A stretch of 64,000 nt of DNA from Bacillus sp. 491mf (GTDB lineage Bacteria; Bacillota; Bacilli; Bacillales; Bacillaceae_G). This document shows positions 1-54,800 of this stretch, piece after piece. Under the pieces are notes generated by a model. It was given only the letters and a program-made list of their open reading frames with translations, made no database searches and was not told where the DNA came from. Made by a program: the position numbers and the translations under genes. The stretch is taken from assembly GCF_900112415.1 (NCBI RefSeq), contig NZ_FOLV01000014.1:42139-106138 (forward strand), read 5' to 3'. Numbering within the stretch: the stretch's first letter is position 1; every line of letters begins with the position of its first letter.

Positions 1-2
1 TT

Positions 3-1568
3 ATGATTTGGGATGAAAAAAATCATAAATTATTTGGAGCAAGGGACTTTTCTGGGGGCCGAACGCTATATTATTGTTGTAATCAACAGCAATTCGCTTT
101 TTGTACGACGATACAACCATTGCTATCATTACCTTATGTACAAAAGCAATTAAATGAACAGTGGCTTGCTGAATACTTGGCGATATGTGGAATTGTCGAT
201 GTAGCCGATACTACTATAACGCCTTATAAAAATATAGAACAAGTACCACCATCACATAGCATTACAGTAGTTGGGAATAAAGTAACGCTTTCTAGATATT
301 GTACGTTAGTTTCAGAAAGAAAGCTACGCTTAAAGTCAAATGAAGAATATGTAGAAGCATTTCAAGATGTTTTTCAAAAGGCTGTTACATCCCGATTACG
401 AACTTACCGACAAGTTGGAGCACAGTTAAGTGGAGGATTGGATTCGGGTTCTATTGTGAGCTTTGCTGCCAAAGCTTTACGTGAAGAAAACAAACCATTA
501 CATACATTTAGCTACATACCACCAAATGATTTCGAGGATTTTACACCTAAACATTTAATGCCGGATGAGCGACCGCTTATTAAAGAAACGGTACGACATG
601 TAGGAGGTATAAAAGATAATTATTTAGATTTTAAGGGAAGAGATCCTTTTTCTGAAATAACGGATTTTCTCGAAATAATGGAGATGCCATATAAATTCTT
701 TGAGAATTCTTTTTGGCTGAAAGGTATGTTTGAGGAAGGATACAAGGAAGAAGTTGGAGTCCTTTTAAATGGTGGAAGAGGAAATCTATCTATATCATGG
801 GGATCAGCTCTGGATTATTATGCTCTTCTTTTAAAAAGGCTAAAGTGGATTCGCCTAGGTCAAGAACTGCATCAATATAGTAAAAATGTAGGTGGAGCTA
901 GATTACGGAGGTTACCATACATTGCGAGATTGGCATTTCCGTCTATTGATAAAGCGCTTTCATCAGGTGCGCCGTATACATTTCCGATGATAATAAATCC
1001 AGATTTTGCGAAAAAGATGGATGTGTTTAATAAACTTAGAGAAAATGGCATTGATGAAGCGGAATGGGCTTCTACAACGAACTTATTTGAACAAAGAAAA
1101 AGCCATTTTGAAGAGTTGTTTTATTGGAATGCAAGTAATACAGTGGCAACGAAATTATCATTGAATTACTCATTATGGAAACGCGATCCAAGTAATGACA
1201 TACGTGTGATTCGTTATTGTTTATCTGTACCAGAAGAGCAATATGTACAAAACGGTGTGGATCGTGCGTTGATTCGTAGATCTACCGAAAAGTATTTGCC
1301 TGATAAAGTACGATTAAATCAAAATATTCAGGGTGTACAAGGAGCGGATTGGGTTCATCGAATGAGCCCGCACTGGAATATGTTTATAGAAGAGTTAGAG
1401 CGAATGAGTACAGACCAAAAAGCTTTAGAATTTTTAGATGGTGAAGTAATAAATCGAGCTCTTCTAAAAGCTAAAGAGGGGCCACTTTCAGAACGTGCAA
1501 TCGATCCTGATTATAAGATTTTAATGCGTAGCTTAATTGTTTATCGATTTATTCAACAATTTACTTGA
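3..1568 (+). CDS. lasC: Lasso peptide cyclase (asparagine synthetase-like), 5' end cut by window
   Basis: Asparagine-synthetase-type enzyme that adenylates the Asp/Glu side chain of a lasso precursor and closes the isopeptide ring. The visible 521 residues begin inside the N-terminal glutaminase-like domain (FGARDFSGG near residue 11) and contain the ATP-pyrophosphatase loop SGGLDSGS at about residues 143-150. Full-length relatives are around 600 residues or more, so the true start lies left of the window and the Met at base 3 is internal. The precursor gene begins 14 bases after its stop, with the kinase, PqqD-like, protease, nucleotidyltransferase and exporter genes following, which excludes a housekeeping asparagine synthetase. 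The symbol is the generic lasso one (padeC/psmC in relatives). Confidence 0.9.
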   Translation: MIWDEKNHKLFGARDFSGGRTLYYCCNQQQFAFCTTIQPLLSLPYVQKQLNEQWLAEYLAICGIVDVADTTITPYKNIEQVPPSHSITVVGNKVTLSRYCTLVSERKLRLKSNEEYVEAFQDVFQKAVTSRLRTYRQVGAQLSGGLDSGSIVSFAAKALREENKPLHTFSYIPPNDFEDFTPKHLMPDERPLIKETVRHVGGIKDNYLDFKGRDPFSEITDFLEIMEMPYKFFENSFWLKGMFEEGYKEEVGVLLNGGRGNLSISWGSALDYYALLLKRLKWIRLGQELHQYSKNVGGARLRRLPYIARLAFPSIDKALSSGAPYTFPMIINPDFAKKMDVFNKLRENGIDEAEWASTTNLFEQRKSHFEELFYWNASNTVATKLSLNYSLWKRDPSNDIRVIRYCLSVPEEQYVQNGVDRALIRRSTEKYLPDKVRLNQNIQGVQGADWVHRMSPHWNMFIEELERMSTDQKALEFLDGEVINRALLKAKEGPLSERAIDPDYKILMRSLIVYRFIQQFT

Positions 1569-1582
1569 AAGGAGGTGAGAAT

Positions 1583-1738
1583 ATGAAAAAGGAATGGCAA
1601 CAACCTGTATTAGAAGTACTTGATGTTAACATGACAATGGCTTCAACAGTTTATGGTCCATATACTGATGAAGCATACAACCCTGGTCACCCTGTTGATC
1701 CAAAAAATCCTGATACTTGGAACCGTTTTACTAGCTGA
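1583..1738 (+). CDS. lasA: Lasso peptide precursor, paeninodin family (51 aa)
   Basis: Small gene with a strong ribosome binding site (GGAGGTGAG) 4-12 bases before the ATG. The leader starts MKKEWQQPVLEVLDVNMTM, the pattern of paeninodin-family leaders: basic start, P-x-LEVLDV block for the recognition element, and Thr at the penultimate leader position. The following core is long (31-32 residues) and rich in Pro and Tyr, with Asp29-Glu30 as ring acceptors and a C-terminal Ser. A C-terminal Ser is the residue phosphorylated in paeninodin, and a kinase gene follows. The Thr(-2) rule predicts a core starting at Ala20 (ring acceptor at position 10); a start at Ser21 gives the usual 9-residue ring. 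Identity as lasso precursor is firm, cleavage site is not. Confidence 0.88.
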   Translation: MKKEWQQPVLEVLDVNMTMASTVYGPYTDEAYNPGHPVDPKNPDTWNRFTS

Positions 1739-1827
1739 GTAAGGATTAGCATATACAATTTATCTTGCTGAATGTATATCTATGAAAATATGTAAAATGT
1801 TCTTATTTTTAAGTTCGTATATGCTAA

Positions 1828-1864
1828 AAAGACCTTTATACTTTTATATTGTATAAAGGTCTTT
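1828..1864 (+). terminator. Hairpin between precursor and enzyme genes (attenuator)
   Basis: Perfect 14-bp stem, AAAGACCTTTATAC paired with GTATAAAGGTCTTT, with a 9-base loop and a short T-rich tail. It lies in the 150-base gap between precursor and kinase genes. Inferred role: partial termination that yields more precursor transcript than enzyme transcript, or 3'-end protection of the short message. Confidence 0.6.
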
Positions 1865-1896
1865 AATTTAACCATGGATATATTGGGGTGAAAATA

Positions 1897-2823
1897 ATGC
1901 TAGAAACTGAAAAAAAGGTAATGTATAAAGCCTTTGATTTCAAAATTTCAAGTGAGATTCCTTTGCCGGAATTACATCGAATAAATGAACAAGAGGTTTC
2001 AATAGACATTGAAATTCAAATTGATAATATGTTAAGTTTTTCCTCTGAATTAGTAGATACACCATTTAAACATGTTGTTAAAGATAATCAAGTGATGTTT
2101 TATGTTCCTGATGTGGGCTTTTTTTCCGCTCAAGCGGGAAAAAGGATAGCAGTTTGCCCGCTCGATGGTGCAGATGATAGTTTGGTGAGGCTCTATATTC
2201 TTGGAACATGTATGGGTGTAATATTGATGCAAAAAAAAATACTTCCACTGCATGGCAGTGCTGTAGTAATTGATGGGAAAGCATATGCTTTTGTAGGTGA
2301 GTCAGGTGCTGGAAAGTCGACGTTAGCTTCGGCGTTCATGAAGAAAGGATATAAACTTCTAAGTGATGATGTAATACCTGTATCTCTTTCTAATGATAAT
2401 GTTCCTATCGTAACACCATCATATCCGCAGCAAAAGTTATGGCAAGAAAGTCTTGATAATTTTGGTATGGATAAAAGTCAATATAAATCAATATATGGTA
2501 GAGAAAATAAATACAGTGTTCCAGTTTCTTCTCATTATTTTTCTAAGCCAGTACCACTTGCAGGTGTATTTGAATTAGTAAAGACAGAGAATGAAATGGT
2601 TGAATTACAACCAATAGAAAAACTTGAGCGTTTACATACCATTTTCCGTCAAACTTATCGTAATTTTCTTATTCCACGCTTAGGATTAATGGACTGGCAC
2701 TTTCATATTTCTACAAATATGATAAACAACCTTGCTGTTTATCGATTATGTCGACCGTTGTCTGGATTTAGTGCTCCGCAACTAGTAGACCTAGTAATAA
2801 ACACTGTAAAAAAAGGAGAATAA
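1897..2823 (+). CDS. lasK: HPr-kinase-like lasso peptide tailoring kinase
   Basis: Homologue of the C-terminal domain of HPr kinase/phosphorylase, as found in paeninodin (PadeK) and pseudomycoidin clusters, where it phosphorylates the C-terminal Ser of the peptide. Visible: LHGSAVVIDG strand, P-loop GESGAGKST at about residues 134-142, and LLSDDV about 17 residues later. About 308 residues. Start chosen at ATG 1897 because TTGGGGTG lies 7-12 bases upstream; an in-frame GTG at 1888 overlaps that ribosome binding site. It is followed within 3 bases by the B1 gene. The precursor here ends in Ser, consistent with a substrate for this enzyme. Confidence 0.85.
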   Translation: MLETEKKVMYKAFDFKISSEIPLPELHRINEQEVSIDIEIQIDNMLSFSSELVDTPFKHVVKDNQVMFYVPDVGFFSAQAGKRIAVCPLDGADDSLVRLYILGTCMGVILMQKKILPLHGSAVVIDGKAYAFVGESGAGKSTLASAFMKKGYKLLSDDVIPVSLSNDNVPIVTPSYPQQKLWQESLDNFGMDKSQYKSIYGRENKYSVPVSSHYFSKPVPLAGVFELVKTENEMVELQPIEKLERLHTIFRQTYRNFLIPRLGLMDWHFHISTNMINNLAVYRLCRPLSGFSAPQLVDLVINTVKKGE

Positions 2824-2826
2824 GTG

Positions 2827-3132
2827 ATGTCGAAAAAACAGGATATTTTATTAAATCAATTTATTGCACAAGTCCCAGGGAATATAGTAAGTGATATGGA
2901 TGGAGAAAAAGTAATGTTAAGTATTTCTAATGGGAAATACTACAATCTAGGTGCAGTAGGTGGAACTATTTGGGCGCTTATAGAGAAACCCATATCGGTT
3001 ACGAAAGTGGTTACTGAATTAATGCAAGAATATGAGATTGATCAGTCTACATGTGAAAAGCAAGTTATTTCTTTTTTGGAACTCTTGTTAGATGAAGCTT
3101 TGGTTGAAATCGTAGACGGGACAGCCGAGTAA
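2827..3132 (+). CDS. lasB1: PqqD-like leader-recognition protein (B1)
   Basis: About 101 residues of the PqqD fold (RiPP recognition element). It binds the leader peptide and presents the precursor to the B2 protease and the cyclase. Pattern visible: DMDGEKVMLSISNGKYYNLG, then a Trp-containing turn (GGTIWALIE) and a C-terminal helix pair, typical of stand-alone B1 proteins, which are usually 80-100 residues. ATG 2827 has AAAGGAG 8 bases upstream; GTG 2824 is an alternative. Translationally close to the kinase gene, so one operon. Confidence 0.88.
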   Translation: MSKKQDILLNQFIAQVPGNIVSDMDGEKVMLSISNGKYYNLGAVGGTIWALIEKPISVTKVVTELMQEYEIDQSTCEKQVISFLELLLDEALVEIVDGTAE

Positions 3133-3171
3133 TCTAGTATTTTATCCTAGATAAGAAGTAGGGAAGTGTGT

Positions 3172-3624
3172 ATGAATAGTATAAAAAAGATGCGAACGTT
3201 TCTTTCACTAGATATGAAAACAATGTCTTTATTTATAGAGGCTTATATTTATTTGGGGTGGGCTCGTATTCTTAAAGGTAGGCCATTCTCTAAGATTGCT
3301 CCTACATTAGGTGTTCCTATGAATGAAACATCTTTAAGTTATAATGAGTCTAATAAATTTGTATTGAGAGATATTTCCGAAGCAATACATATTATGAGCC
3401 GTCATACCTTTTGGGAAAGTAAGTGTCTTGTAAGGGCAATTGCTGGAATGAAAATGCTAGAGAGACGACAAATGGAGAGTACATTATATTTAGGAACTGC
3501 GAAGGATGAGAACGGAAATATGATTGCTCATGCATGGTTGCGTAGTGGTCCTTTTTATATTACTGGAGCAGAAGAAATGAAGAGATTCACTGTAGTAAAT
3601 AAATTTGCTAGAAAAATTGGTTAA
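3172..3624 (+). CDS. lasB2: Lasso leader peptidase, transglutaminase-like (B2)
   Basis: Cysteine protease that removes the lasso leader. About 150 residues; the catalytic Cys is in SKCLVRAIAGMKMLERR and the His in IAHAWLRSG, the spacing and context of B2 proteins (C-L-x-R-S/A ... H-A-W). The ATG at 3172 has AGGG 8 bases upstream; the in-frame GTG at 3166 is too close to it. Works with the B1 protein encoded just before. The acidic third catalytic residue, normally just after HAW, is not obvious here (Arg-Ser-Gly follows). Confidence 0.87.
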   Translation: MNSIKKMRTFLSLDMKTMSLFIEAYIYLGWARILKGRPFSKIAPTLGVPMNETSLSYNESNKFVLRDISEAIHIMSRHTFWESKCLVRAIAGMKMLERRQMESTLYLGTAKDENGNMIAHAWLRSGPFYITGAEEMKRFTVVNKFARKIG

Positions 3625-3645
3625 AAAATCTTGAAGGAGAATATC

Positions 3646-4833
3646 ATGCATAATAGTTGTGGGCTTGATTTAAATTGTGTGACTAAGGAGCTCAAATTGC
3701 AGCTGGAAATTATGAAAAGAGAAACTGCTGCGGAGCTACAAGAAATCGATAAGGCTTGGTTTGCAAACATCGATTGGGATAAATTTCTCGAATTAACAAT
3801 TCATCACCGTGTGTACTCGTTCATTTATCCAAAGATGAAAGAATTGGATGGGAATTTGGTTCCTGTATATGTCATACAAACTTTACATCAATATTTTAAG
3901 ATGAATACATTTCAAATGCTTCATTTAAGTGCAGAAATGGAACATATGAGTAAATTGTTTGCACAAAACGAAATTCGTCTCCTTGTATTAAAAGGTCCTG
4001 TACTTGCTGATGATCTTTATGGTGATATTTCTCTACGTACTTCGAGTGATTTGGATGTTCTCATTCCTTTACATCATCTCGATAGAGCGGAAGAACTTTT
4101 ATTGAACCTTGGCTATGTGAAAGATGATTATATTGAGAGCGTTTTAAACGACTGGAAATGGAGACATCATCATGTAACATATATTCATCCTCAGAAGAAC
4201 ATTAAGATTGAAATTCATTGGAGATTAAATCCTGGTCCAGGAAAGGAACCACATTTTGAGGAACTATGGAATCGAAAGAGAATAAGTTCTCTTACTAGTG
4301 CCCCTGTTTACATTTTAGGTAGAGAGGATTTATTTTTATTTCTAGTTTCTCATGGTGCACGTCATGGTTGGTCAAGGCTACGTTGGTTAGTAGACATTAA
4401 TCAAATTGTAAAGCAAAAACTTGATTGGGAAAAAACTATTAAGTTATTGAAGAAAAATTATTACTTTCATATAGGTGGTCAAGCATTGTTTTTAACTTCG
4501 CAGTTACTAAAGACTCCATTAATTGAAGAAGTGGAACCATTGTTATCTGGTAACCGTCCGAAGATGTTAGCGCAGGAAGCGGTATTTTATTTGGAAAGAA
4601 TGGTAAACTTACATACAGATCCTGTTCCGGAAGATATAGCAATGTACCATAGTCGGCATTTATTTTCATTAATGTCTTATCAGCAAAAGTTTTTATATAT
4701 TATGAGTTGCCTTTATCCTTATCCAATTGATGCTGAAACATTGCCGTTACCTAAGCAACTTCATATGTTGTACTTTCCTTTACGTCCTATTTTATGCATC
4801 TGGAGAAAAATAAGAAAGCGCGAATTAACATGA
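3646..4833 (+). CDS. lasN: Lasso-cluster nucleotidyltransferase family protein (N)
   Basis: About 395 residues, member of the NTP_transf_5-type nucleotidyltransferase family. Pol-beta-like signature visible: LLVLKGPVLADDLYG then RTSSDLDVLI, a strand with the paired acidic residues, then a long helical C-terminal half. In the pseudomycoidin cluster I recall that such a protein adds hexose to the phosphorylated peptide, despite its family name; that role here is inference from position between B2 and the exporter. AAGGAG lies 6 bases before ATG 3646; a TTG at 3631 is not needed. The stop is 13 bases before the exporter start. Confidence 0.8.
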   Translation: MHNSCGLDLNCVTKELKLQLEIMKRETAAELQEIDKAWFANIDWDKFLELTIHHRVYSFIYPKMKELDGNLVPVYVIQTLHQYFKMNTFQMLHLSAEMEHMSKLFAQNEIRLLVLKGPVLADDLYGDISLRTSSDLDVLIPLHHLDRAEELLLNLGYVKDDYIESVLNDWKWRHHHVTYIHPQKNIKIEIHWRLNPGPGKEPHFEELWNRKRISSLTSAPVYILGREDLFLFLVSHGARHGWSRLRWLVDINQIVKQKLDWEKTIKLLKKNYYFHIGGQALFLTSQLLKTPLIEEVEPLLSGNRPKMLAQEAVFYLERMVNLHTDPVPEDIAMYHSRHLFSLMSYQQKFLYIMSCLYPYPIDAETLPLPKQLHMLYFPLRPILCIWRKIRKRELT

Positions 4834-4846
4834 GGAGGACAAAATA

Positions 4847-6649
4847 GTGGAGCATCTCTTATATTTTGCAAAGAAGTTACATTCTTTTTCTGGGAAAATA
4901 TTGTATATAAATTTATTAGGAATGGCCTTGGTCAGTCTTTTAGAGGGGGTAGGAATTCTTTTATTAATTCCTATGATAAGTATCAGTGGAGTTGTAAAGG
5001 TAAATAGTGGTTCAACCCCAGTCCCAGAGATGTTTAAATTTTTGCATAATATCCCTGAAACAATAAGTTTGTTGCTTATTTTAGGCATTTATATCTTTTT
5101 GGTAATAGCTCAGTCCCTCTTGCAACAAAATCTTGCTCTTCGCAATACAAAAATTCTTATGAATTTTACAAACTATATAAGATTGGAAATTTATCGTTCT
5201 TTATTACAGGCAAATTGGTCTTTTTTTATAAAAAAGAGGAAGTCTGATCTTATCAATGCGATGACTGAAGAATTAGGACGCGTTATAAATGGAACAAACT
5301 TATTTTTTCAGATGTTAACTGCACTTGTTTTTACAATAATACAGTTCGGAATCGCCTTATGGCTATCTGTAAAAATAACAATTTTTGTACTATTCGCTGG
5401 TTTAGTACTTGCTTATTTTTCTAGACATTTTATAAAAAAGTCAAGGACGTTAGGGAATCAAACATCGGAGATAGCCAAAAGTTATCTTGGTGGTATAACA
5501 GACTATTTTAATGGAGTTAAAGATATTAAAAGTAATATGTTGGAAGAATCCAGATATACATGGTTGCATACTTGGTGCAAAAGGATAGAGCAAGAGCAAT
5601 TGGCATTTATAAAATTGAAAAATAGCTCACAACTTTTTTATAAAGTTACATCGTCTATTCTAATCGCATTTCTTATTTTTACATCTGTAAAACTATTTCA
5701 AGCTCAGCCTGGACAATTAATATTAATTATCCTTATTTTTTCTAGATTATGGCCGCGATTTACAACTATTCAGTCTAACCTGGAACAACTTGCTGCAAGT
5801 GTTCCTGCGTTTAAGTCTTTAATCGAATTACAAGAAGACTGTCACAGAGCCGCAGAACTGCATGATTTAGAACGACAATATAAAGATGCAAAACCAATGT
5901 CTATAGATAAGGGGATTGAATGTCGGGATATTTATTTCTGTTACAATTCGAAGGAATCTTTATATGCTCTTCAAAATATTAATTTCCAAATAAACTCCAA
6001 TTGTATGACTGCTATTGTCGGACAATCGGGTGCTGGAAAAAGTACACTAATTGATATTTTAATGGGACTTATGCAGCCAGAAAAAGGACAAGTGTTAATA
6101 GATGGAATCCCTCTCACAAATGATAATTTATTATCATTCAGAAAATGTATTAGCTATGTTTCACAGGATCCATTTTTATTCAATGCAAGCATAAGAGAAA
6201 ATTTGTTGATGGTTGAACCAAATGCAAGTGAAGAACAAATATGGGAGTCGCTGGAATTTTCAGCTGCTGCTGAATTTGTACGAAGACTACCACACGGGCT
6301 TGATACTCTTATTGGAGATCGCGGAGTGAGGCTTTCTGGAGGAGAAAGACAGCGACTTGTACTTGCAAGAGCTATTTTAAGAAAACCTTCAATTCTAGTA
6401 TTAGATGAAGCGACAAGTGCGTTAGATACGGAAAACGAAGCAAAAATTCAATCTGCTCTAGAAAGATTAAAAGGAAAAATGACCATTATCGTGATTGCTC
6501 ATCGTTTATCAACGATACGTAATGCTGATCAAGTAATTGTATTAGATAAGGGAAAAATCGTTCAAAAAGGAGCCTTTATCCAATTGGCGAAAGAAGAAAG
6601 TGGTATGTTTAGTAAGTTGTTAGGAAATCAAGTTGAAGTTAGTGTTTAG
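4847..6649 (+). CDS. lasD: ABC exporter of the lasso peptide (D)
   Basis: Type I ABC exporter half-transporter of 600 residues, membrane domain (about residues 15-320) fused to an ATPase domain (about 350-600). Motifs: Walker A GQSGAGKST, Q-loop region SYVSQDPFLF, signature LSGGERQR, Walker B ILVLDEATSALD and switch His in IAHRLSTI. All catalytic residues are present, so it can act as a homodimer. GTG start with GAGGAGG 8 bases upstream. As the last gene of the lasso cluster it should export the mature peptide and give the producer immunity. Confidence 0.9.
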   Translation: MEHLLYFAKKLHSFSGKILYINLLGMALVSLLEGVGILLLIPMISISGVVKVNSGSTPVPEMFKFLHNIPETISLLLILGIYIFLVIAQSLLQQNLALRNTKILMNFTNYIRLEIYRSLLQANWSFFIKKRKSDLINAMTEELGRVINGTNLFFQMLTALVFTIIQFGIALWLSVKITIFVLFAGLVLAYFSRHFIKKSRTLGNQTSEIAKSYLGGITDYFNGVKDIKSNMLEESRYTWLHTWCKRIEQEQLAFIKLKNSSQLFYKVTSSILIAFLIFTSVKLFQAQPGQLILIILIFSRLWPRFTTIQSNLEQLAASVPAFKSLIELQEDCHRAAELHDLERQYKDAKPMSIDKGIECRDIYFCYNSKESLYALQNINFQINSNCMTAIVGQSGAGKSTLIDILMGLMQPEKGQVLIDGIPLTNDNLLSFRKCISYVSQDPFLFNASIRENLLMVEPNASEEQIWESLEFSAAAEFVRRLPHGLDTLIGDRGVRLSGGERQRLVLARAILRKPSILVLDEATSALDTENEAKIQSALERLKGKMTIIVIAHRLSTIRNADQVIVLDKGKIVQKGAFIQLAKEESGMFSKLLGNQVEVSV

Positions 6650-14479: not shown

Positions 14480-14875
14480 CTACTTTTGCTTTACTTGTAT
14501 GTCTAACGTTCCATCTTGACGAACAGATTTAATAACAATATCTATTGTACCTTTACCTTTACCTTCAAAATAACCAAATATAACCACTTTTTGCATTTTT
14601 TTATTATTATCTTGATAATTTAAAGTTAAACTATTTTCTCCTACATCTTTTAAATAAATTTTAGTTTTATATTGTTTATTAGAATTAATAGTAGGTATTG
14701 TAATTTGTTTAGTTTTCCCACCATCAATAATTATAAGATTCTTAATATCTTGATCTGATTTGTTAGTAATTGTAATATCAAAACCATGATTAAAAAATAC
14801 AAAATACAATATTCCTATAGTCGAGATAGTTAATACTACTAAAATCGTATAAAACCATTTGTTTTTTTTCATCAT
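14480..14875 (-). CDS. Small membrane-anchored protein of unknown function
   Basis: 131 residues: a short basic N-terminus (MMKKNKWF), one hydrophobic helix at about residues 9-29, and a beta-rich outside domain (FDITITNKSDQDIKNLIIID ... KIYLKDVGENSLTLNYQ) looking like a small Ig/OB-type sandwich. No recognised family. Either of two adjacent ATG codons could start it; AAGAAAAGAG lies upstream. It follows the frameshifted DUF6973 gene by about 45 bases and may be co-transcribed, possibly as an accessory or immunity-like partner; that is speculation. Confidence 0.6.
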   Translation of the reverse strand: MMKKNKWFYTILVVLTISTIGILYFVFFNHGFDITITNKSDQDIKNLIIIDGGKTKQITIPTINSNKQYKTKIYLKDVGENSLTLNYQDNNKKMQKVVIFGYFEGKGKGTIDIVIKSVRQDGTLDIQVKQK

Positions 14876-14919: not shown

Positions 14920-15507
14920 TTAATACCAAATAGGTACTAAATCTCCATTTCCACCAAATACTCTAAAATAACCCCATCTTGCTAATTGTCTTAATTTATC
15001 ATGGCCCTCACCAGCGTGTGCTCTTCCGACAGCATTATTGTGTAAATCCATCTTCTTATCATTTCCGCTACTAGTTGATTCATGGGCAGTAGCGAATTCA
15101 GCAGCTATACCTTGTCCAAGTCGATGCGCCATGTGTTCGTTCCAGTGAGCATGTCTAAAAGCATCTTGATGATCCCACAGACCGTCATCATGTGGATACA
15201 TTTGTCTTGACATAGTTAATGCCCAATTCTTTGTTTCATTAACTGTAGGTACTGCCCATGGATACTTCTTAACCAAGTATAGTTCTGCAAGTGTTAACTT
15301 TGGATAATAATAGCTGTACCTAACTTTAGAGCCATTACCATTTTCTTCAGATATTTCAAGTGCTTTATCAAAAATTTGTACAGTTTTATCCTCATCTGAT
15401 TTTGTGGAATTATTGACATCTTCTATATAGTCTAATAATTGATTAACATCCCCTTTGATATTTCATACTTTCAAAAAAAATTTATATTCAGAATATACTT
15501 TTTTCAA
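14920..15507 (-). pseudogene. DUF6973-domain protein, frameshifted near its start
   Basis: The C-terminal half carries the DUF6973 pattern: DAFRHAHWNEHMA, FATAHES, MDLHNNAVGRAHAG. This domain is common as the C-terminal module of secreted or polymorphic-toxin-like proteins. Coding similarity continues upstream of the first Met in frame (LTLAELYLVKKYPWAVPTVN is the real domain start) back to a TGA at 15463-15465. A start with ribosome site exists further up (TTG at 15505-15507 after GGGGGA) but in a different frame, and an A8 run at 15473-15480 is a likely slip site. So either a frameshift mutation or a sequencing error. Confidence 0.65.
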
Positions 15508-53458: not shown

Positions 53459-53786
53459 GATAATTCTCCGTTTCTTATATATTTTCCATATAAGAAATTA
53501 TAATATTATCAGGTAAATATTAACACTTAAATTTAGTTTAAATCGAGGGGCACTTTATTGGATTCTAAAATCAATTAGTATTAGATTGAAAAATCTATGA
53601 TTTGGTTTTAGCGTTTGGGGGAAGAATGTTTTTCCTACTTCCTTTTCTATTTTTTGCAGCTGAATAGCAAGTTTTACAGATATGAGATGATAATGTAAGC
53701 AGTTGTGATTGCTTGAAATGAAGGATTTTAATAGCAGTTTCACGAATACAAATCTAAATATATAGAAAAGAATGGGAGAAATACAT
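53459..53786. other. Intergenic stretch without supported gene
   Basis: A minus-strand open frame crosses it but only as the continuation of a shadow of the next gene; no start with a ribosome site. Small hairpins near 53570-53600. Nothing named. Confidence 0.4.
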
Positions 53787-54800
53787 ATGATACAATATCC
53801 GTTTTTACGAAAAGGGGCAACAATTGGGGTTACAGCACCTTCTTCTGGTGTAAATGAAGCGTTACATAATATGTTTAAACAATCTTGTGAAAGTATGGAA
53901 AGAAAAGGATATACAGTCGTTTGCGGAGAAACAGTTTGGACACAAGAGAAAGCTAAGTCTGCTAGTGTGAAAAAAAGAGCAGATGAATTTATGGAAATGA
54001 CCCAGGATGAGAACATTGATATTATCATTCCTCCTTGGGGTGGTGAATTGTTAATTGAAATAATAGAAGATATTGATTTTGAAAAGATAAATAAAAAATG
54101 GTTATTGGGATACTCAGATACGAGTGTTTTATTATTAGCGATAACGTTAAAAACAGGAATAGCGACTGCTCACGGGACGAATTTTGTAGATGTAAGAGGC
54201 GAATATTCTGATCATACAACAGCAATGTGGCAAAGTGTATTATCAACGGAAGCAGGGGATTCAATCACTCAATATTCTTCAGAGAAATATCAAGCGAAAT
54301 GGCAACATAATAATCCATCACCGTGTGTGTTTCACTTAACAGAAGATACAAATTGGAAAACAATTTCGAATGGGAATGTGAACATTACAGGTCGATTGCT
54401 TGGCGGATGTATTGATGTGATTAGACATCTCATTGGCACGCCATTTGGTAATGTGCAAGAGTTTAGGGAGAACCATTTTCATGATGATCCGCTCATTTGG
54501 TACTTTGAAAATTGTGAGTTAACGACTACTGATTTACGACGTACGTTGGTTCAAATGAAGTTGGCAGGGTGGCTTGATAATTGTTCAGGCATTTTATTTG
54601 GGCGCAGTGCTGCCAATCATCCAGTGAATGAATATACCGCTGAAGATGTATATACAGAACTTACTGATGAGCTGCAAATTCCAATTGTTTATGATGTAGA
54701 CTGTGGTCATAAGCCTCCGCAAATTACCTTTATAAACGGCGCATTTGCAGAAATTGAAGTGGAAAATGGTAAAGGTGTAATTACACAGCATTTTAAATAG
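53787..54800 (+). CDS. LD-carboxypeptidase family S66 peptidase (MccF-like)
   Basis: About 337 residues. MccF/LdcA fold: N-terminal FLRKGATIGVTAPSSGVNEA, nucleophile Ser in WLLGYSDTSVLLL, then the oxyanion/GG turn IIPPWGGELL, and C-terminal His in VDCGHKPPQITF. MccF-type members cut the amide of microcin C-like aminoacyl-adenylates and confer immunity; others cut muropeptides. ATG 53787 has GGGAG 8 bases upstream. The next gene starts 15 bases later, so an operon with the acetyltransferase. Confidence 0.88.
   Translation: MIQYPFLRKGATIGVTAPSSGVNEALHNMFKQSCESMERKGYTVVCGETVWTQEKAKSASVKKRADEFMEMTQDENIDIIIPPWGGELLIEIIEDIDFEKINKKWLLGYSDTSVLLLAITLKTGIATAHGTNFVDVRGEYSDHTTAMWQSVLSTEAGDSITQYSSEKYQAKWQHNNPSPCVFHLTEDTNWKTISNGNVNITGRLLGGCIDVIRHLIGTPFGNVQEFRENHFHDDPLIWYFENCELTTTDLRRTLVQMKLAGWLDNCSGILFGRSAANHPVNEYTAEDVYTELTDELQIPIVYDVDCGHKPPQITFINGAFAEIEVENGKGVITQHFK

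Follow-up and report, generated by a model that had tools for sequence, protein, structure and literature searches.

A complete-looking lasso peptide cluster of the paeninodin/pseudomycoidin type opens the 64,000-nucleotide stretch of Bacillus sp. 491mf DNA analyzed here (contig NZ_FOLV01000014.1, forward-strand positions 42,139 to 106,138; hereafter, the window), and comparison of its precursor and cyclase with those of related clusters makes it probable that the encoded peptide has a natural ring of 10 residues, closed between Ala1 and Asp10. Such a ring would exceed by one residue those described for natural lasso peptides, and the comparisons suggest that this trait is common to a branch of related clusters. 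As a type, the cluster is already known: the accessible text of a 2026 paper gives HprK kinases and NTP transferases as typical for paeninodin-like clusters, and the K and N proteins of pseudomycoidin are described in review passages; the unusual part is the register of the core. In the literature, which was searched through text passages and paper listings (not in supplements or subscription papers), the ring acid is placed at position 7–9, giving rings of 7, 8 and 9 residues, and a 10-residue ring is so far known only from an engineered analogue mentioned for fusilassin/fuscanodin. Since engineered fusilassin macrocycles of 7–10 residues were tolerated, according to the same passages, a ring of this size is feasible.

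The precursor gene A (1583..1738; this and all other features of the cluster lie on the plus strand) encodes 51 residues (MKKEWQQPVLEVLDVNMTM/ASTVYGPYTDEAYNPGHPVDPKNPDTWNRFTS) and scores 58.1 bits against the paeninodin family model NF033524 (cut-off 27). Its leader contains the WxxPxL motif (1595..1612), known from literature passages as the RRE-binding motif, and ends in WQQPVLEVLDVNMTM, with Thr at position −2 (1634..1636), 13 residues after the motif Trp (W+13). When leaders were located by the W..P motif, Thr not being required, Thr was found at W+13 in 186/186 distinct leaders, some of them taken from loci retrieved by a precursor model covering the Thr, and in 68/68 leaders from loci fetched by N, with no precursor model used. 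This Thr(−2)-Met(−1) register, combined with the positions assigned in print to residues of a related leader (P-12, L-10, E-9, V-8, L-7, as far as the source passage goes), which implies the same cut after Met, yields the core ASTVYGPYTDEAYNPGHPVDPKNPDTWNRFTS, with 32 predicted residues from Ala1 to Ser32 (1640..1735). Read in this register, the core has no Asp or Glu at positions 7, 8 or 9, where the lasso definition in print expects one; its first acid is Asp10 (1667..1669), the predicted isopeptide acceptor. An acid at 7–9 is present in 61/61 published cores checked from the table of one review (61 of 62 rows, with lariocidin B omitted as the same peptide as lariocidin, and with a few rows sharing one sequence). 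An earlier sequence-only reading of this DNA had rightly named the cluster type and proposed a new lasso peptide, but overlooked that the first acid is at 10, which is the new part. Its expectation of an undescribed core holds as far as searched: the core has no match in the review's table, and four strings, three of them from the core and one from its relatives, were found in no searchable paper, supplements and subscription papers being beyond reach. The possibility that the product is pseudomycoidin itself was rejected, the tabulated pseudomycoidin core being different. The product masses it proposed apply to a core beginning at Ala1 (computed as 3577.617 for the lasso, 3657.584 with phosphate and 3819.637 with phosphate plus hexose); a core shifted to Ser1 would give 3506.580 for the lasso and 3586.547 with phosphate.

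A first acid at position 10 (hereafter D10, vs. D9 for an acid at 9) recurs among relatives, for example in the clusters of Cytobacillus sp. S13-E01 (L003) and Paenibacillus sp. H1-7 (L041). Within 206 candidate precursors with Thr(−2), a set that includes a handful of clearly spurious entries (L047, L067 and a single one from each of L031 and L057), an acid occupies position 9 in 153, while 25 have none at 7–9 but one at 10. Of the listed Bacillales precursor matches nearly all were retrieved, and of the Paenibacillales matches the 30 best loci. In the family sharing the DE[AG]Y motif (22 precursors), Asp is at 10 in 18 and at 9 in 4, and in the family sharing the tail D..[FY]...T...LT[WFYL] (33 precursors) the counts are 13 for position 10 and 20 for position 9, the tail staying in step. 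The window core is a clean D10 case, having no further acid at 7 or 8. In L031 and L057 the D10 precursor also has Asp7 (ASTVYGDFTDEAY), and a 7-residue ring is possible there. A separate precursor type combines a paeninodin-type leader with no acid at core 7–11 (L157, L158, L160, L162, L163, L169, L170, L174, L179, L185, L186 and L188); most of these cores begin with Lys (KGW, KFF, KFH, KGH, KGI), and peptides of this type are perhaps not cyclised as lassos.

The position of the acid goes along with the lineage of the cyclase. We paired each of 84 cyclases with the next precursor and built a tree, on which all cyclases of the 25/84 pairs with the D10 shift fall inside one 33-row clade (Shimodaira–Hasegawa-like approximate likelihood ratio test, SH-aLRT, 98), together with 8 D9 rows; the D9/D10 label requires two changes on this tree vs. 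a mean of 21.7 in shuffles. An alignment scan of the cyclases pointed to a variable residue in the motif LLNGxRGN-x-S[IV]SWG. This residue is L or M in 25/25 D10 rows and W, H, F or Y in 55/59 D9 rows, the exceptions being three L rows with Asp9 plus Glu10 and one Ser. In the window it is Leu262 (counted from base 3; 786..788), in LLNGGRGN-L-SISWG, which tracks the ring-acid position. The rule was fixed beforehand (D10 with L/M, D9 with W/H/F/Y) and applied to held-out Paenibacillales cyclases, separated by sequence similarity and not, as the original plan had it, by genome (L278 shares a genome with L050). They came from 90 loci, namely the 30 best matches and 60 chosen down the list before their precursors were seen; 2 were missed by the motif pattern, 20 were removed for sharing at least 90% identity with training sequences and 4 lacked a precursor, leaving 64 counted. 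Among these pairs, L at 262 occurs in 16, all with acid at 10 (13 without acid at 9 and 3 with Asp9-Glu10), and another residue occurs in 48, every one of which has Asp9. For D10 rows the rule (L/M) held in 13/13, and both loci that had escaped the pattern, inspected manually, fit a simpler division into L/M or not. Across all 148 pairs, the L/M class (44) has acid at 10 in 44, with acid at 9 too in 6, and the non-L/M class (104) has acid at 9 in 104, with acid at 10 too in 3. A chance position of the acid was rejected on the grounds that position 10 is acidic in 44/44 L/M-type pairs. From these comparisons, Leu262 may have to do with the longer ring. Overlong cyclase frames (900–1120 codons), considered as a separate lead, were dropped; the one read (L319) shows no sign of a fused domain.

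Several points weigh against a 10-residue ring and its link to the cyclase. The second half of the rule (D9 to W/H/F/Y) held in only 41/51 held-out rows (the others being 5 N, 1 S, 1 T and 3 L), and the fitting form, L/M or not, was fixed only once the held-out rows had been seen. Six L-type pairs have Asp9 plus Glu10. The link between cyclase and precursor comes down to one gain and one reversion in the tree, two switches in all, and relatedness therefore explains most of the counts, a sign test being without power to reach significance. The structural model of the cyclase has a confidence (predicted local distance difference test, pLDDT) of 83.8, with the stretch around residue 262 near 60. 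Some D10 relatives carry a further acid at 7 (L031, L057, L036, L168, L212 and L249) or at 8 (L026, L184, L187 and L050); smaller rings are therefore open to them, and they are not clean cases. Finally, no natural ring larger than 9 was found in the literature, within the reach given above for supplements and subscription papers.

Five loci (L148, L149, L150, L153 and L154) bear directly on what places the ring: they are ordered C-A10-C-A9-K-B1-B2-N-D, with one cyclase per precursor and a single B1 and B2, so that one B1/B2 pair serves both D9 and D10 precursors. This arrangement speaks against the best surviving alternative, which we regard as unlikely, namely that the B2 cut lies one residue further on (placing Thr at −3), leaving a core that would begin at Ser1 and close an ordinary 9-residue ring, Ser1-Asp9. 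With such a cut, both the ring size and the N-terminus (Ser) of the window's peptide would be of known kinds, and the same shift in LG- and NGPG-type relatives would produce a classical Gly1-Asp8 ring; yet Thr and its spacing are unchanged in all leaders counted above (186/186 and 68/68), and the paeninodin and pseudomycoidin cores are tabulated from AGPG, with Asp9 as the sole acid at 7–9. A shifted cleavage would, moreover, leave the task of the cyclase as it is, yet co-variation is seen in the cyclase, whose action follows cleavage. The B2 tree (66 rows, the five both-kind loci not counted, and rows differing from the 84 of the cyclase tree) needs 6 changes of the D9/D10 label, but is poorly resolved and carries little weight.

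We consider it improbable that, in place of a threaded lasso, the cluster makes a phosphorylated peptide of linear or plain cyclic form, or that it is silent. Linear polyphosphorylated peptides (LPPs) do come from clusters whose K, RRE, N and exporter genes are similar, and the native pba lasso cluster gave no detectable product in its host, both according to the passages available, whereas the window has a cyclase and a B2 with conserved motifs (31 of the 84 cyclases having been aligned for this), and the LPP core gene set, as described in those passages, includes neither. An 11-residue ring through Glu11 of the DEAY motif, which directly follows Asp10 in the window core, is very improbable, an acid at 11 being present in only 1/13 precursors of the second D10 family and position 10 being acidic in every L/M-type pair.

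For the 10-residue ring, then, a route can be proposed in which each chemical step, as well as the threading, is inferred. B1 would bind the WxxPxL leader, K would phosphorylate the C-terminal Ser of the precursor, and B2 would cut after Met(−1), one residue beyond Thr(−2). The cyclase C would then link the Asp10 side chain with Ala1, so that a ten-residue ring surrounds the tail; N may decorate the phosphate with a sugar or some other group, and D would export the product. The genes assigned to these steps, their catalytic residues, the leader register, the absence of acid at 7–9, the conserved acid at 10 and the link to a cyclase clade are all directly observed.

The seven genes are ordered C-A-K-B1-B2-N-D with tight spacing (3..6649), as the sequence-only reading had them; the open reading frames bear this out, and the NCBIfam and Pfam models agree with the names. 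The lasso macrolactam synthetase (cyclase) gene C (3..1568) starts outside the window, and its 521 in-window codons compare with frames of about 645–706 codons in its relatives from the cyclase/precursor pairs; its best NCBIfam model is the lasso cyclase NF033535 (246.9 bits vs. a cut-off of 525, a shortfall expected for a protein truncated at the window edge), it matches Asn_synthase (PF00733) and it has an SGGLDS motif at residue 143. The HprK-like peptide kinase K (1897..2823, or from a GTG at 1888) falls below every NCBIfam cut-off and just under that of Pfam Hpr_kinase_C (28.8 vs. 33.3), while its residues H119, GxSGxGKST (134–142), D157 and D158 are at least 97% conserved (65 sequences). 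It is followed by the PqqD-like RRE protein B1 (2824..3132; NF033536, 136.4 bits, cut-off 80) and the leader peptidase B2 (3166..3624; NF033537, 105 bits, cut-off 33), in which C87 and H122 are at least 97% conserved (66 sequences). The NTP_transf_5 protein N (3646..4833, or from a TTG at 3631; PF14907, 192.3 bits, cut-off 31.2) and the ABC exporter D (4847..6649; PF00664 and PF00005) complete the set. The window has the marks of the paeninodin family (NF033524 precursor, WxxPx[L] leader, Thr(−2), B1 and B2 over their cut-offs, with the Cys and His, and an HprK-like kinase with a precursor ending in Ser), and has N alongside K, as in the pseudomycoidin kind. No further copy of C, K, B1, B2 or N was found elsewhere in the window by tblastn.

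With respect to tailoring, Ser is C-terminal in 184/186 related precursors and in the window (1733..1735, the predicted phosphorylation site, with paeninodin as the precedent); combined with the intact His, P-loop and Asp-Asp of the kinase, this makes a phosphorylated product likely, in line with the sequence-only reading. The same reading's suggestion of glycosylation is less secure, and decoration with sugar by N is uncertain: review passages report that PsmN adds hexoses to pseudomycoidin in E. coli, while deletion of the related lppN made no detectable change in B. subtilis, as far as the text consulted tells. PsmN, termed a nucleotidyltransferase in those reviews, would belong to the Pfam family NTP_transf_5. 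What N transfers may be a hexose, a nucleotide or a sugar phosphate. The N motifs K116-G-P118, R131 and D135-L-D137 do not vary among the 39 sequences aligned out of 81 (the window and 38 of 80 kept relatives), and the AlphaFold2 model of N has a confident fold (pLDDT 89.3); a search against solved structures gave no sequence match up to E = 1.

The cluster type is common: a search for N in species genomes returned 130 relatives, of which 80 were kept, and the unbroken order C-A-K-B1-B2-N-D is preserved in 48/80 of these N-fetched loci, some of the other 32 ending at contig edges. Since it is likewise unbroken in 10/10 loci chosen for D10-like precursors, the arrangement is not a matter of chance. 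L026 has a different order (C A K B2 D B1 N). In L003, L006 and L026, the lasso cluster is adjoined on the other strand by exporter- and B1-like genes, and in L003 and L026 also by a kinase, which would fit a neighboring LPP-type cluster.

As far as the sources consulted describe them, the closest systems share much with the window but not the register. Pseudomycoidin (psm, Bacillus pseudomycoides DSM 12442) likewise has K and an NTP_transf_5-type N beside its lasso genes and a C-terminal Ser; unlike the window core, which is dissimilar and has its first acid at 10, its core AGPGKRLVDQVFEDEDEQGALHHS has the acid at 9. Paeninodin (Paenibacillus dendritiformis C454) has the same NF033524 precursor family, split B1/B2 and HprK-like kinase, whereas its acid is at 9 and the window cluster adds N. 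The cyclase of the fusilassin/fuscanodin ring-size variants accepted a ten-residue ring, but by engineering from a natural ring of 9; that of the window would be natural and common to a clade. LPP clusters, which have K, RRE, N and exporter genes of the same kinds and are often found beside paeninodin-like clusters, differ in a core set without cyclase, a signal-peptidase-like protease, a YxxP leader and phosphate on Ser3.

The 158-base gap between A and K contains two hairpins (1746..1827 and 1828..1864; fold z −3.72 vs. shuffles), the second with a 14-pair stem followed by a U-rich stretch, as in a terminator. As a possible attenuator, they may allow C and A to be made in excess over the remaining cluster genes; this is only a suggestion, because a simple terminator scan listed no plus-strand site.

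Other observations concern cores with two cysteines (NGPGNANADCFD...NASC, or GGPG and LGPG kinds), which may represent disulfide-bearing lassos (L012, L013, L016, L018, L019, L022, L025, L029, L030, L035, L071, L076, L078, L148, L149, L150, L153 and L154); their C-A pair often adjoins another C-A pair ahead of a single K-B1-B2 set. Elsewhere in the window, a short DUF6973 protein (14920–15276, minus strand; 64.9 bits) adjoins a small open reading frame without a Pfam match (14480–14875, minus strand), perhaps a remnant or an orphan domain with its partner, and positions 53772–54800 encode an LD-carboxypeptidase of the peptidase S66 kind; among solved structures, its best relatives carry the name microcin immunity protein MccF. 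The hut genes of the window reach at most 77% identity in 397 genomes of one order, and a flanking protein is close, though not identical, to a prolyl hydroxylase of solved structure, from which a Bacillus cereus-like species seems probable.

Overall, the comparisons can be extended to a broader proposal, which we hold in even balance: that a Bacillota branch naturally makes 10-residue rings, that the cyclase (L/M for acid 10, other residues for acid 9) and not the peptidase sets the ring size, and that some clusters yield two ring sizes from one B1/B2/K/N/D set. The tails able to thread and lock are restricted by ring size, and a genome-mining rule requiring an acid at 7–9 could mis-score or mis-place the D10 branch. 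The paired C-A10/C-A9 clusters would allow the way in which a cyclase gauges its ring to be studied in a natural experiment, the first suspect being a single residue.

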